64,000 nt of DNA from Paenibacillus sp. CAA11 (GTDB lineage: Bacteria; Bacillota; Bacilli; Paenibacillales; Paenibacillaceae). A program made the translations under genes and the position numbers. This document shows positions 1,014-50,990 of the stretch, piece after piece. The DNA is taken from positions 3,455,001 through 3,519,000 of the forward strand of contig NZ_CP028922.1 of the NCBI RefSeq assembly GCF_003060825.1, read 5' to 3'. The notes under the pieces were generated by a model. It saw only the letters and a program-made list of their open reading frames with translations, did no database searches and was not told the origin of the DNA. How positions within the stretch are numbered: position 1 is the stretch's first letter; each line of letters opens with the position of its first letter.

Positions 1014-1991
1014 TTGTACAAGAAACTATTGATTTCTATGACTGCAGTGCTGGCCTTCGCTGGATTTGCTAATCTGGGAAGCCCCAATCAGGGAGCTTTC
1101 TCACCTGCAGCTGCATCCGCAGCATCGGTTCAAGCAAGCACAAATTCATCGGCTTATGATGATATCAATGAGAAGGTAGACGGCTCCTTAGTCCTTGAAG
1201 GGGATATCGCATTTGCATATCCGGGTTCCAACGGGGTTACGCTGCGCGGATCCATTCGACTGCCTAATTCCTATGAGAAGGGGAAAAAGTATCCTGTAGC
1301 GATTCTGTCCCATGGTGTATTGGGAGATCGGAATCAGCAAGGAATGTTTACCCAGCTTACAGATGCTTTGCAAAAAAAAGGGATGGTCACCGTCCGCTTT
1401 GACTTCGACGGTTATGGCGAAAGTGACGGAGAACTTAAATATAATTCGATCAAATCCGAGAAAGAAGACCTCAGCGCGATCATTGACTACGTAAAAACGC
1501 TCGATTATGTGGATACCAACAGAATTAATCTGGTAGGCTACAGCATGGGCGGAGCGGCAACCAGCTTGGTAGCTGGAGAAAGAGCCAATGAAATCCATAG
1601 TGTGGCACTCTGGTCGGCAGCAGCAATCTTGGTTGATGACGCTGAGAGAGGCAGCCTGCTCGGGGCAACCGTTGATGTGAATAACCTTCCGGATGAAATT
1701 CCGATCTTCGGCGGAGCTTATACGTTCGGCAAGAAATGGTTTGAAGACGCCATTGGCTTGGATATTTACGGTATTGCGCAGAAATATGAAGGCGATGTGC
1801 TGATTGTCCATGGCGATAAAGACCAAGTTGTACCTATGAGCTATTCCAAGAAATATGACAAAGTCTACGGCAAAGGCGCTAAGCTTGTTGTTGTCAAAGG
1901 CGGCGAGCATGTCTACGCAGGTGACGCTTTGGATATGGCTGTAAAGCGGACTGTGAACTTCCTTTACAAAGAGAATAAAGTGAAGAAATAA
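1014..1991 (+). CDS. Secreted alpha/beta hydrolase (esterase/acyl hydrolase)
   Basis: The start is TTG at 1014, behind a strong GGAGGGG ribosome binding site. A signal peptide (KK, hydrophobic stretch, Ala-rich cleavage region near residues 34-38) shows export. The alpha/beta-hydrolase fold is clear: oxyanion region LSHGVLGDR, nucleophile elbow GYSMGG with Ser177, acid Asp270 in HGDKDQVVP and His299 in GGEHVY. The length (325 residues) fits extracellular esterases of the BAAT/serine-aminopeptidase group. The substrate cannot be read from sequence; feruloyl or acetyl esters of plant polymers are possible given the GH genes nearby. It is a single-gene unit between its own promoter and a terminator. 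Confidence 0.88.
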   Translation: MYKKLLISMTAVLAFAGFANLGSPNQGAFSPAAASAASVQASTNSSAYDDINEKVDGSLVLEGDIAFAYPGSNGVTLRGSIRLPNSYEKGKKYPVAILSHGVLGDRNQQGMFTQLTDALQKKGMVTVRFDFDGYGESDGELKYNSIKSEKEDLSAIIDYVKTLDYVDTNRINLVGYSMGGAATSLVAGERANEIHSVALWSAAAILVDDAERGSLLGATVDVNNLPDEIPIFGGAYTFGKKWFEDAIGLDIYGIAQKYEGDVLIVHGDKDQVVPMSYSKKYDKVYGKGAKLVVVKGGEHVYAGDALDMAVKRTVNFLYKENKVKK

Positions 1992-2002
1992 GGTTAGGTA
2001 AT

Positions 2003-2070
2003 ATCCCCTCTGAGTAGCGCTCCATAAAAGCCCCATGGTTCATGGGTGGAGGATGCTCGGAGGGGATTTT
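2003..2070 (+). terminator. Rho-independent terminator after the alpha/beta hydrolase
   Basis: ATCCCCTCTGAG (2003-2014) pairs with CTCGGAGGGGAT (2056-2067), with an inner CCCATG/CATGGG arm, and is followed by TTTTT. Confidence 0.8.
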
Positions 2071-2261
2071 TGCATGCTTTAGATTTTGTTTTCCCATCAA
2101 GGAAATCAAAAATTTTGAACAGTATTATATAGATCATGATTATATCCGATGATATTGGGCTGTTGCATAGTAGGGAACTAATGATATAGGAGGAGATTTT
2201 CCAATTATTTTGCACATGGCCGCTCGATTCATTCGGCACTGGGTGGGGGTAAAAGAATAAA

Positions 2262-2287
2262 CCTTGGAGGGAATTACCCTCACAAGG
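2262..2287 (-). terminator. Terminator hairpin behind the decayed immunity-like gene; copy of the one at 2478-2501
   Basis: CCTTGGAGGG/CCCTCACAAGG forms a stem that, on the minus strand, is followed by a T-rich tract. The flank (about 2226-2288) is recognisably similar to 2441-2502, including ACTGGGTGGG versus ACTGAGTGGG. This points to duplication of a gene-plus-terminator cassette. Confidence 0.55.
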
Positions 2288-2380
2288 CTATTTGTCAAAT
2301 ATCTTTTTGATTCTTTCACGGTCAAAGTCGAGTATCCAATCATTGTATTTTTTATAATTGATTCTAATATCCCCTTGTTT
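2288..2380 (-). pseudogene. C-terminal remnant of a small gene, probably an old immunity gene
   Basis: Thirty open codons end in TAG at 2288. The encoded tail includes NYKKYNDWILDFDRERI followed by KKIFDK, which is protein-like in composition and charge. An in-frame TAA at 2381-2383 and the absence of a start and ribosome binding site show it is broken. It sits directly in front of a terminator that is a copy of the one behind the intact small gene at 2514-2816, so it is most simply the end of a displaced neighbour gene. The family is not recognised. Confidence 0.4.
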
Positions 2381-2477
2381 TTAGCTAATATTATAATATA
2401 GTACGGAAATGTTGAGAGTTAAGTTATATTGAACGTAGCCCCTGAATTATTCAACACTGAGTGGGTAAAAAGAAAGA

Positions 2478-48470: not shown

Positions 48471-48833
48471 CTATCTTATCGTCTTCACAGGAGCGGTGAG
48501 ATAGGCTTGCGCCTCCTCTAAGCTGTCAAAGGACGCTGCCATACTGCCAAACATCTGCTTCATCTGTATTCTTAATGTCACTGAAGGGGCGTAAAATGCC
48601 CACTTCGCAATGCCATGCTCTTGGCTGATGGGCCCCAATGATGCCAAGGCTACAGCAACTTGTTGGGGAAATCTACGGCTTAAGCTTAAATCACCCAGCA
48701 CGATAAACCCGGGCTTGGCCTGCTGAACGGCTTGTTTATAATACTCTATGTAATGAATTACTTCTTCCATGGTGATGCTTCGGATTGCGCAAGTAATCTG
48801 GTTGCTCTGTTCATTGTATGTAATCTCAAACAT
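48471..48833 (-). CDS. Small hypothetical protein, STAS/SpoIIAA-like fold suspected
   Basis: 120 residues, AGGAGG site before ATG 48833. Strand-helix pattern (FEITYNEQSNQITCAIRSIT, PGFIVLGDLSLSRRFPQQVA, AKWAFYAPSVTLRIQMKQMF) resembles the small alpha/beta STAS-like proteins, including the GDLSLS turn. No domain motif decides it. It follows the NRPS-like gene by 39 bases on the same strand and is probably co-transcribed, hence under the same c-di-GMP switch. Confidence 0.55.
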   Translation of the reverse strand: MFEITYNEQSNQITCAIRSITMEEVIHYIEYYKQAVQQAKPGFIVLGDLSLSRRFPQQVAVALASLGPISQEHGIAKWAFYAPSVTLRIQMKQMFGSMAASFDSLEEAQAYLTAPVKTIR

Positions 48834-48872
48834 TGTACTTGTCCTCCTGTAACAACTTGATGCTAGATCTTT

Positions 48873-50810
48873 CTATTTGCGGTCTCTTGTCCTTAGCAGC
48901 TGGACCGTTCCATCCGGCAGCCAGCGGGCCTGCCTGCCTGTTCTGTAACTCTTTCTCTGAGGTCTCCAATTCCAGGGATCATTCATAAAAACATCTGTAT
49001 CTGCCTCCCTCTCCTTGTCTTCGTCTTCCCATTCGAATTCCTTACCTAGGATCATTAATTCTCCCGGAATGAAGGCAGGCTGTAGGTGGCCGCATGAATC
49101 CAGAATGGCCCACTGCACACCTGCAATAGGCTTGATGCGCGGGAAGCGCTCCTCTTCCCTGGATATCAGCTGTATGCCTGCGATCCCTCCGCTCTGCGCC
49201 AGGCTGTAGCCAGCATACACTCTATACGGAGGCAGGCTGCCCGGCAAGCTGCCGCATAGTCCCCAGGTAAGCAGTGCACGAAGCGAGCGATTCTCTAACT
49301 TCATGATAGGAATGCTGAGCTCCGGGGGAATCAAAGTACAGGTGATTGCATGTTCATCAAAATAATGATACAGCCCTTCTGCATCCTTCGCCAGTTCTTC
49401 AGACACGATATGAAGGGTTGCCCCTGAGGCCAAATAAGCGGGGTAGCTCCAGCTAGGAATGCCTGTCTCCCACTGCTCAACAATTACCCCACGGTCATCG
49501 GGACTCAGTTCAAAATGCTGCCGATGCCAGGAAGCAAGCTGGACCAGCGTACGATGATCATAAACCCTCCTTTTCGCCACCCCCTCTGTATCGAAACTGT
49601 ACAGCACACAGGCTCTGTCAAAAGCGGCCGGGCTTTTAGCAGGAGCACAAACAGCAGCCGGCTTCTGTAGAGCCTCCGCTGCATGAAGGGTTGGAATCTG
49701 AGTCGCCTCTAAGCGGTCATCAGGCTTTAGGAGCAGCAGAAGCTTAGCTCTGCTATTCTTAATCACATGCTGCGCCTGCTTCGCAGTGAATGACAGTGGG
49801 ATGGGAATATAAGCGGCCCCGGCGGCCAGTATCCCTAACATAAGGGGCAGCAGAAGCAGATGAGGTATAACCTGAAGTGCAACGAGATCACCTCTGCCGA
49901 TCCCATACCCGGTGATCACTTCTGCTAAGCGTTTTACGGCATGGTCTAACTGAGTGTATGTCAGCTTCTCTGTCCCATGAACGACAGCAGAATGCCCCGG
50001 CGTCTGCTCAGCCTGATCATTCAATAAAGTAAGCAGCGTCGCCCCCGGCAGCTCCGGCGGAGATGAGGCACTGAATTTGGTGTCAAGCTGCCGCTTCTCC
50101 TCGGAAGTTAACATCTCAACAGCGCTAATCGGCGTCATCGGAGTTTGAAGACCAGCCTCCAGCATATGATCCAAATGGCAGATCAGCCGGTCCACCATAA
50201 CCCGGTGATAGCGATCGCTTCGGAACAAGGCTTCTACTTGAATTCCACCTTCGGCGAATTTGACATTAAGCAGAAGCTCACATCCTGACTCTTGGACTCT
50301 CTCCTTCGTTGACTTCGTTAGTTTGAGTCCTAGGGCAGCCCGAATCGGCAAGTCCTTTCCAAGAGAAGCGGACAAATTAACAAATTCCTGCGGTGCTATA
50401 GCTCGCTGGCCTTCCTGATCTATGCTGTCCTTCATCTGCTCGAAGGCAAACCCCAGCGGCCAGTTCAAGCCGAATTGAAGCTCCAGTGGGATCACTTGAT
50501 CAGGCTGAGTGGTGATGGCTGCCAGCCACACGGCATGGCTTCCGTAGTAACGCTGAAGCACAAGACCCAAAGCCGTGCAGCATGCTGCCAAACGGTGTTC
50601 TGCTGACATGGCCAGCAGGCGCTGCCCGCCGAGCGAATAGGCCTTAATTATCGAGCCTTCGGTTATTTCATAGCCTGGATCTGATGATAAAGCTGGCACT
50701 GGAAGATCATTTACAAGGCTATCCTGGGTCTCTGTGCTTTGAAGACGGTGCCTCCAATATTCCAAATTATTTAACGGCTTGTCAGCCTCAATTATATTTC
50801 CCGGAGACAT
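48873..50810 (-). CDS. Degenerate NRPS-like protein: condensation tail plus adenylation-like domain, no carrier domain
   Basis: ATG 50810 (MSPGNIIEADKP) is favoured by GGGGGG just upstream; ATG 50831 is an alternative. Residues about 1-245 resemble the end of a condensation domain (YHRVMVDRLICHLDHMLEA, then PISAVEMLTSEEKRQLD linker). Residues about 260-640 follow the adenylation layout: LLTLLNDQAEQTPGHSAVVH, LTYTQLDHAVKRLAEVITGY, and YRTGRQARWLPDGTVQLL. However, the ATP-binding P-loop SGTTGxPKG is replaced by SFDTEGVAKRR, the A7 aspartate is changed (YRTGR, not YRTGD), and the sequence ends before the A8/A10 lysine and the carrier domain. Adenylation is therefore unlikely. It may be a decayed or repurposed module. 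A c-di-GMP riboswitch precedes it. Confidence 0.78.
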   Translation of the reverse strand: MSPGNIIEADKPLNNLEYWRHRLQSTETQDSLVNDLPVPALSSDPGYEITEGSIIKAYSLGGQRLLAMSAEHRLAACCTALGLVLQRYYGSHAVWLAAITTQPDQVIPLELQFGLNWPLGFAFEQMKDSIDQEGQRAIAPQEFVNLSASLGKDLPIRAALGLKLTKSTKERVQESGCELLLNVKFAEGGIQVEALFRSDRYHRVMVDRLICHLDHMLEAGLQTPMTPISAVEMLTSEEKRQLDTKFSASSPPELPGATLLTLLNDQAEQTPGHSAVVHGTEKLTYTQLDHAVKRLAEVITGYGIGRGDLVALQVIPHLLLLPLMLGILAAGAAYIPIPLSFTAKQAQHVIKNSRAKLLLLLKPDDRLEATQIPTLHAAEALQKPAAVCAPAKSPAAFDRACVLYSFDTEGVAKRRVYDHRTLVQLASWHRQHFELSPDDRGVIVEQWETGIPSWSYPAYLASGATLHIVSEELAKDAEGLYHYFDEHAITCTLIPPELSIPIMKLENRSLRALLTWGLCGSLPGSLPPYRVYAGYSLAQSGGIAGIQLISREEERFPRIKPIAGVQWAILDSCGHLQPAFIPGELMILGKEFEWEDEDKEREADTDVFMNDPWNWRPQRKSYRTGRQARWLPDGTVQLLRTRDRK

Positions 50811-50852
50811 AGGATCCCCCCATTCTCGCATTGCCGTTCTTCACATTAACAT

Positions 50853-50990
50853 AAAAAAAATAACCCGCCGCCAAGGAGAGTTACAAACATGGTTACGCCC
50901 AAGGACTCGGCAGCTGGCTGGCTGATGCAACAATTTTGCATGTAAGCCCCTAAAGCTTTGCGTCACCGCCTTCCGACGGGTTTGCCTTTT
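50853..50990 (-). ncRNA. Cyclic di-GMP-I (GEMM-I) riboswitch with expression-platform terminator
   Basis: On the minus strand GGCAAACC (near 50985-50978), an AAGGCGG stem strand and GACGCAAAGC (50964-50955) occur in the order and spacing of the GEMM-I aptamer, followed by GGGGCTTACAT and a GGGCGTAACC close. The GCAAACC...GACGCAAAGC pair is highly characteristic. Downstream, TAACTC/GGGTTA (50883-50861) forms a stem followed by eight T, a terminator about 50 bases before the NRPS-like gene. The switch probably controls the two minus-strand genes 50810-48471. The direction of control cannot be read with certainty. Confidence 0.88.

Follow-up and report, generated by a model that had tools for sequence, protein, structure and literature searches.

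A c-di-GMP-I riboswitch upstream of a truncated, apparently non-adenylating remnant of an AusA-like peptide synthetase in Paenibacillus sp. CAA11

Introduction

What does a second-messenger riboswitch control when the gene behind it seems to have lost the chemistry of its family? The question is raised by a 64,000-nucleotide stretch of the genome of Paenibacillus sp. CAA11 (hereafter the window), in which a c-di-GMP-I element on the minus strand stands before a gene resembling part of a nonribosomal peptide synthetase (NRPS). A first-pass annotation of positions 48471-50990 proposed that this gene, here called gene A, is either a repurposed binding protein or what decay has left of a pathway for a surface-active lipopeptide. 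The same interval includes a second gene that the annotation did not mention, here called gene B. Both genes and their shared leader were compared with homologous loci in related bacteria, using domain and RNA model searches, alignments, a tree, RNA folding and structure models.

The riboswitch and its expression platform

The aptamer of the c-di-GMP-I (GEMM-I) riboswitch lies at 50996-50906 (-). It matches the Rfam model RF01051 over positions 1-87 of 87, untruncated, with 63.9 bits (E = 3.5e-10) against a gathering score of 35, and it can be aligned with aptamers found 5' of intact NRPS genes in relatives. The two spaced motifs on which the riboswitch had first been recognized, GGCAAACC (50986-50979) and GACGCAAAGC (50964-50955), are both in place. 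The terminator and run of eight T reported just before the gene were also recovered: the intrinsic terminator and its U tract occupy 50884-50853 (-), with arms GUAACUC (50884-50878) and GGGUUAU (50866-50860) and the eight T at 50860-50853. All seven pairs of the terminator are formed in each of the four aligned leaders (the window and three relatives), and the window carries a two-sided, compensatory change of U-A for C-G.

Folding of the leader reveals a competing helix. The 3' strand of the aptamer's P1 helix, GCUGCCGAG (50914-50906), doubles as the 5' arm of an antiterminator, and the 3' arm, CUUGGCGGC (50875-50867), is at the same time the terminator loop. Terminator and antiterminator are thus mutually exclusive, as expected of an expression platform. 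The core pairs of the antiterminator are kept in the leaders of three relatives, and the same alternative can be read in the leaders of P. planticolens, P. terrigena and P. sp. N3.4. The free leader RNA favours the antiterminator (-21.4 kcal/mol for the longer stretch vs -8.4 kcal/mol for the isolated terminator region, two values calculated over different spans). When ligand is absent, pairing of GCUGCCGAG with CUUGGCGGC in the terminator loop would prevent termination; when c-di-GMP is bound, P1 would close, the terminator would form and expression would be turned off. The fold and its conserved pairs thus predict an OFF switch, silent when c-di-GMP is high, and the element is apparently still in working order as a putative c-di-GMP binder.

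The genome has two further c-di-GMP-I riboswitches. One, at about 3.813 Mb (L001, 1585-1501 (-)), lies directly 5' of a 63-aa frame (1489-1298 (-)) with a SinI anti-repressor domain, an arrangement by which c-di-GMP might act directly on the SinI/SinR biofilm switch. The other (L002, 1501-1580 (+)) precedes the gene for a predicted secreted transglutaminase-like protein (1593-2396 (+)), which is followed by an adhesin-like frame.

Gene A is a truncated first module without its catalytic motifs

Gene A was annotated as 652 aa at 50831-48873 (-), directly behind the riboswitch and terminator; a start at 50810 is more likely, since the relatives start there and a G-rich ribosome site is present. 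Its product begins with the C-terminal portion of a condensation domain (positions 371-455 of the PF00668 model), followed by an AMP-binding core (PF00501, 116 bits vs a gathering score of 29.9). The domain search returned no A-sub, carrier, TE or reductase domain, in agreement with the adenylation layout without a carrier described in the first-pass annotation. Aligned with the NRPS of related operons, gene A can be followed from its first residues through motif A8 and then ends, at the hinge between A-core and A-sub. The condensation N-lobe is likewise missing in all relatives, and its absence is ancestral and no sign of decay. Across the aligned module, identity has fallen to 24-28%.

The losses noticed earlier, of the P-loop and of the aspartate of YRTGD, hold up in an alignment with 14 relatives. 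At the A3 P-loop (49601-49563 (-)), YSFDTEGVAKRRV replaces YTSGSTGTPKGV, and the A7 motif (48947-48921 (-)) reads YRTGRQARW, with Arg in place of Asp. Motifs A3, A4, A5, A7 and A8 are intact in 14/14 aligned relatives. Gene A retains 4 of the 14 invariant residues of A3, 1 of the 14 of A4 and 1 of the 8 of A5. For these three motifs together, 6/36 invariant residues survive, compared with 36/84 in the non-motif part of the adenylation domain (Fisher p 0.007; A3-A5 are textbook core motifs, but were picked after the alignment had been seen). The features of an active adenylation domain (A3, A4/A5, the A7 Asp and an A-sub with the A10 Lys) are not found in gene A, which, as far as its motifs tell, cannot adenylate via the known mechanism. 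The first-pass description, a second-messenger switch standing before an NRPS fragment that does not adenylate, is upheld.

In the AlphaFold model of gene A (pLDDT 78), the condensation C-lobe and the greater part of the A-core are preserved, and the model matches C-A didomains, with a TM of 0.82 to that of Txo1, values that reflect an input including the family alignment and hence a bias towards the family fold. Residues 540-650, the last A-core subdomain, are modelled at low confidence. Neither gene A nor gene B has a match in PADLOC.

Gene B is predicted to be a STAS/SpoIIAA-like protein

Gene B (48833-48471 (-)) encodes 120 aa and begins about 40 bases 3' of gene A, with its own AGGAGG ribosome site. 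It has no Pfam or NCBIfam match, and a search of solved structures with its sequence gave chance matches only; the fold search was informative. The model of gene B (pLDDT 94.3; VIA Z 12.8 to SpoIIAA and RsbS) matches 1thn_B and 6jhk_A with Z 12.8 and an rmsd of 2.4-2.5 over 109-112 residues, and gene B is accordingly a predicted STAS/SpoIIAA-like protein. The likeness to SpoIIAA and RsbS is one of fold; identity to them is 6-13%, and gene B has a conserved DLS stretch of its own, with D48 and S50 invariant across 18 homologues.

No orthologue of gene B was found in 39 other genomes of the same genus, and homologues are present in other members of the family and of the order. The closest of them sit directly behind a large NRPS ending in a thioester reductase, and it was through these homologues that the origin of the locus could be traced. 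Paenibacillus mangrovi (L155, 9977-10348) retains gene B in the neighbourhood seen in relatives; there is no NRPS inside the fetched flank and no riboswitch upstream, and the PPTase gene is gone as well, an independent loss. Since gene B persists there with neither NRPS nor riboswitch nearby, the case suggests a role for gene B independent of the NRPS. In Paenibacillus popilliae (L078, 1501-2730, the same place as L116), three tandem copies of gene B follow the NRPS.

The intact operon in relatives

The corresponding operon was found in P. planticolens, P. terrigena, P. cookii, P. chibensis, P. dokdonensis and P. faecalis, in further Paenibacillus and in Saccharibacillus. Its NRPS, of about 2270 aa, has the order condensation C-lobe-A-T-C-A-T-reductase (PF07993) and is followed by gene B and then, in those operons examined, by the gene for an MCP-like membrane protein. 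Several intact operons have a PPTase gene close by. At eleven Paenibacillus loci, representing at least eleven species, the NRPS is immediately preceded by an aptamer of the c-di-GMP-I or c-di-GMP-I-GGC type. The aptamers of L115, L117 and L118 have GGUAAA with GACACAAAG in place of the usual GGCAAA with GACGCAAAG, a change that looks like covariation, with U-A replacing C-G, and that of L118 scores best as c-di-GMP-I-GGC. In Saccharibacillus, a PPTase gene instead lies directly 5' of the NRPS, and the aptamers there precede a neighbouring divergent gene. The NRPS of Saccharibacillus qingshengii (L144, 5788-9911) is split into a 1214-aa frame and a displaced 199-aa frame, by decay or by sequencing error.

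The best NCBIfam model for the NRPS of one intact relative (L135) is AusA (NF047350), with 1455.9 bits, below the equivalog cut-off of 2500. The intact enzymes share with AusA the A-T-C-A-T-reductase order and, near several of them, a PPTase gene; they differ in falling below the cut-off and in their c-di-GMP switch and STAS and MCP-like companions. No thioesterase or starter condensation domain was found in them. With two modules, a reductase end and neither of those domains, the predicted product is a dipeptide aldehyde or pyrazinone, and the ancestor of the locus looks like a synthetase for such a compound, as judged from domain content, and not a lipopeptide one. The lipopeptide origin put forward in the first-pass annotation was rejected on this domain order, a condensation C-lobe at the start and a reductase at the end.

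The window and the relatives share one order: switch, half-condensation start, adenylation core and gene B. In the tree, gene A groups with the first-module adenylation domains of the operon (fork 96/97), apart from the operon's second modules and from the order's other NRPS, with an end branch of about 7 that leaves its precise position uncertain. A direct contig search with gene A found no relative, and the truncated form turned up in no other genome, including the 39 others of the genus. The flanking AraC regulator has only distant paralogues in the genus (best 38-39%) and fixed no syntenic locus. The shared order and the tree trace the locus to a c-di-GMP-controlled operon for an AusA-like synthetase, a STAS-like protein (gene B) and, in the operons read that far, an MCP-like receptor. 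The synthetase of this lineage has been cut at the A-core/A-sub hinge, and the carrier, the second module, the reductase and the MCP-like gene have gone from the locus. Measured against AusA, gene A is the first C-lobe and A-core only, and catalytically dead.

The peptide pathway is lost

A whole-genome search with the intact NRPS recovered nothing besides gene A and a single acyl-ligase-like frame of 537 aa, and no remnants of the lost NRPS parts were found elsewhere in the genome. Nor does the genome have an Sfp-type PPTase, the sole ACPS-family match being a 133-aa frame of AcpS size. Because carrier, second module and reductase are absent and there is no Sfp-type PPTase, no peptide can be made, which shows, at the level of gene content, that the biosynthetic pathway is dead. 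Of the earlier suggestion of pathway decay, the biosynthetic loss therefore stands, and the lipopeptide nature of the pathway does not.

Retention or decay of gene A

Loss of the pathway leaves the question of whether gene A itself is being kept. When an intact relative was mutated neutrally to 40-45% identity, about 18-20 stops were expected over 642 codons (simulated minimum 9-12), and gene A has 0. Of the alignment columns that hold hydrophobic residues in every relative, 84% remain hydrophobic in gene A, compared with 69 +/- 4% in neutral simulations run to equal loss of invariant residues (SD 3.5-4). Both simulations ignore indels and treat the whole divergence as neutral, and the retained signal may be partly older than the truncation. 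Synonymous codon use resembles that of neighbouring genes and lies about 6 SD above random choice. Together, the open frame, the core, the codon usage and the compensated RNA hairpins favour retention by selection, and a fold modelled as largely intact counts on the same side.

These observations bear on each of the competing accounts. Gene A could be a pseudogene in slow decay, a leftover of the lost NRPS that drifts and owes its open frame to time or chance. Its missing catalytic motifs and pathway and its very long branch fit this account, and its extreme divergence is also compatible with a long period of relaxed evolution. In S. qingshengii the NRPS does not form a single open frame, in P. 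mangrovi gene B stands without it, and none of the 39 other genomes in the genus has an orthologue of gene B. The absence of stops, a core much more hydrophobic than neutral drift would leave, normal codon usage and the compensated riboswitch hairpins speak against it, and slow decay is considered unlikely, though still to be taken seriously. Quite improbable is that selection acts on gene B alone and that gene A is a translated spacer between it and the riboswitch. The short distance between the genes, the strong ribosome site of gene B and the retention of gene B without NRPS in P. mangrovi are compatible with a spacer; but a role as spacer would give a 650-residue protein no reason to keep its hydrophobic core, and with its own ribosome site gene B has no need of coupling. 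Least probable by far, and very hard to sustain, is that gene A retains adenylation or nucleotide binding by way of unusual residues: A2, A6 and A7 partly remain, but the P-loop, the A4 Asp, the A5 motif, the A7 Asp and the A-sub with the A10 lysine are all missing, and neither a carrier nor an Sfp-type PPTase is available.

The preferred reading, judged slightly likelier to be right than wrong, is that genes A and B are a repurposed non-enzymatic remnant under the inherited OFF switch, with the pathway dead. The protein of gene A would have been retained for some non-catalytic function in low-c-di-GMP (motile) cells, probably the binding of a protein or ligand together with gene B. Of the repurposed binding protein first proposed, it is retention that the evidence favours; binding itself is putative. 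In a fuller form, advanced tentatively and at a little under an even chance, the first module has turned into a stand-alone, c-di-GMP-switched regulator or scaffold that acts non-catalytically with the STAS-like gene B, a pseudo-NRPS signalling pair whose parent was a c-di-GMP-gated dipeptide-aldehyde/pyrazinone pathway with STAS-like and chemoreceptor-like proteins.

Relation to known systems and significance

Like other members of RF01051, the element in the window has a full aptamer match above the gathering score and a downstream transcription terminator. Its target is an NRPS remnant, whereas the other two copies in the genome precede a SinI-like frame and a transglutaminase gene. The types of part are all known. 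No description of a c-di-GMP switch on such an NRPS was found in the literature searched, which is not proof of novelty, and the combination of switch, AusA-like NRPS, STAS-like and receptor-like proteins and truncated survivor was likewise not found there.

The locus and its relatives tie a second-messenger riboswitch directly to an AusA-like synthetase family in at least eleven Paenibacillus species, with the prediction that the peptide would be made at low c-di-GMP. The locus offers a natural case of regulation that outlived the enzyme under its control. If gene A works, it would be a pseudoenzyme derived from an NRPS module.
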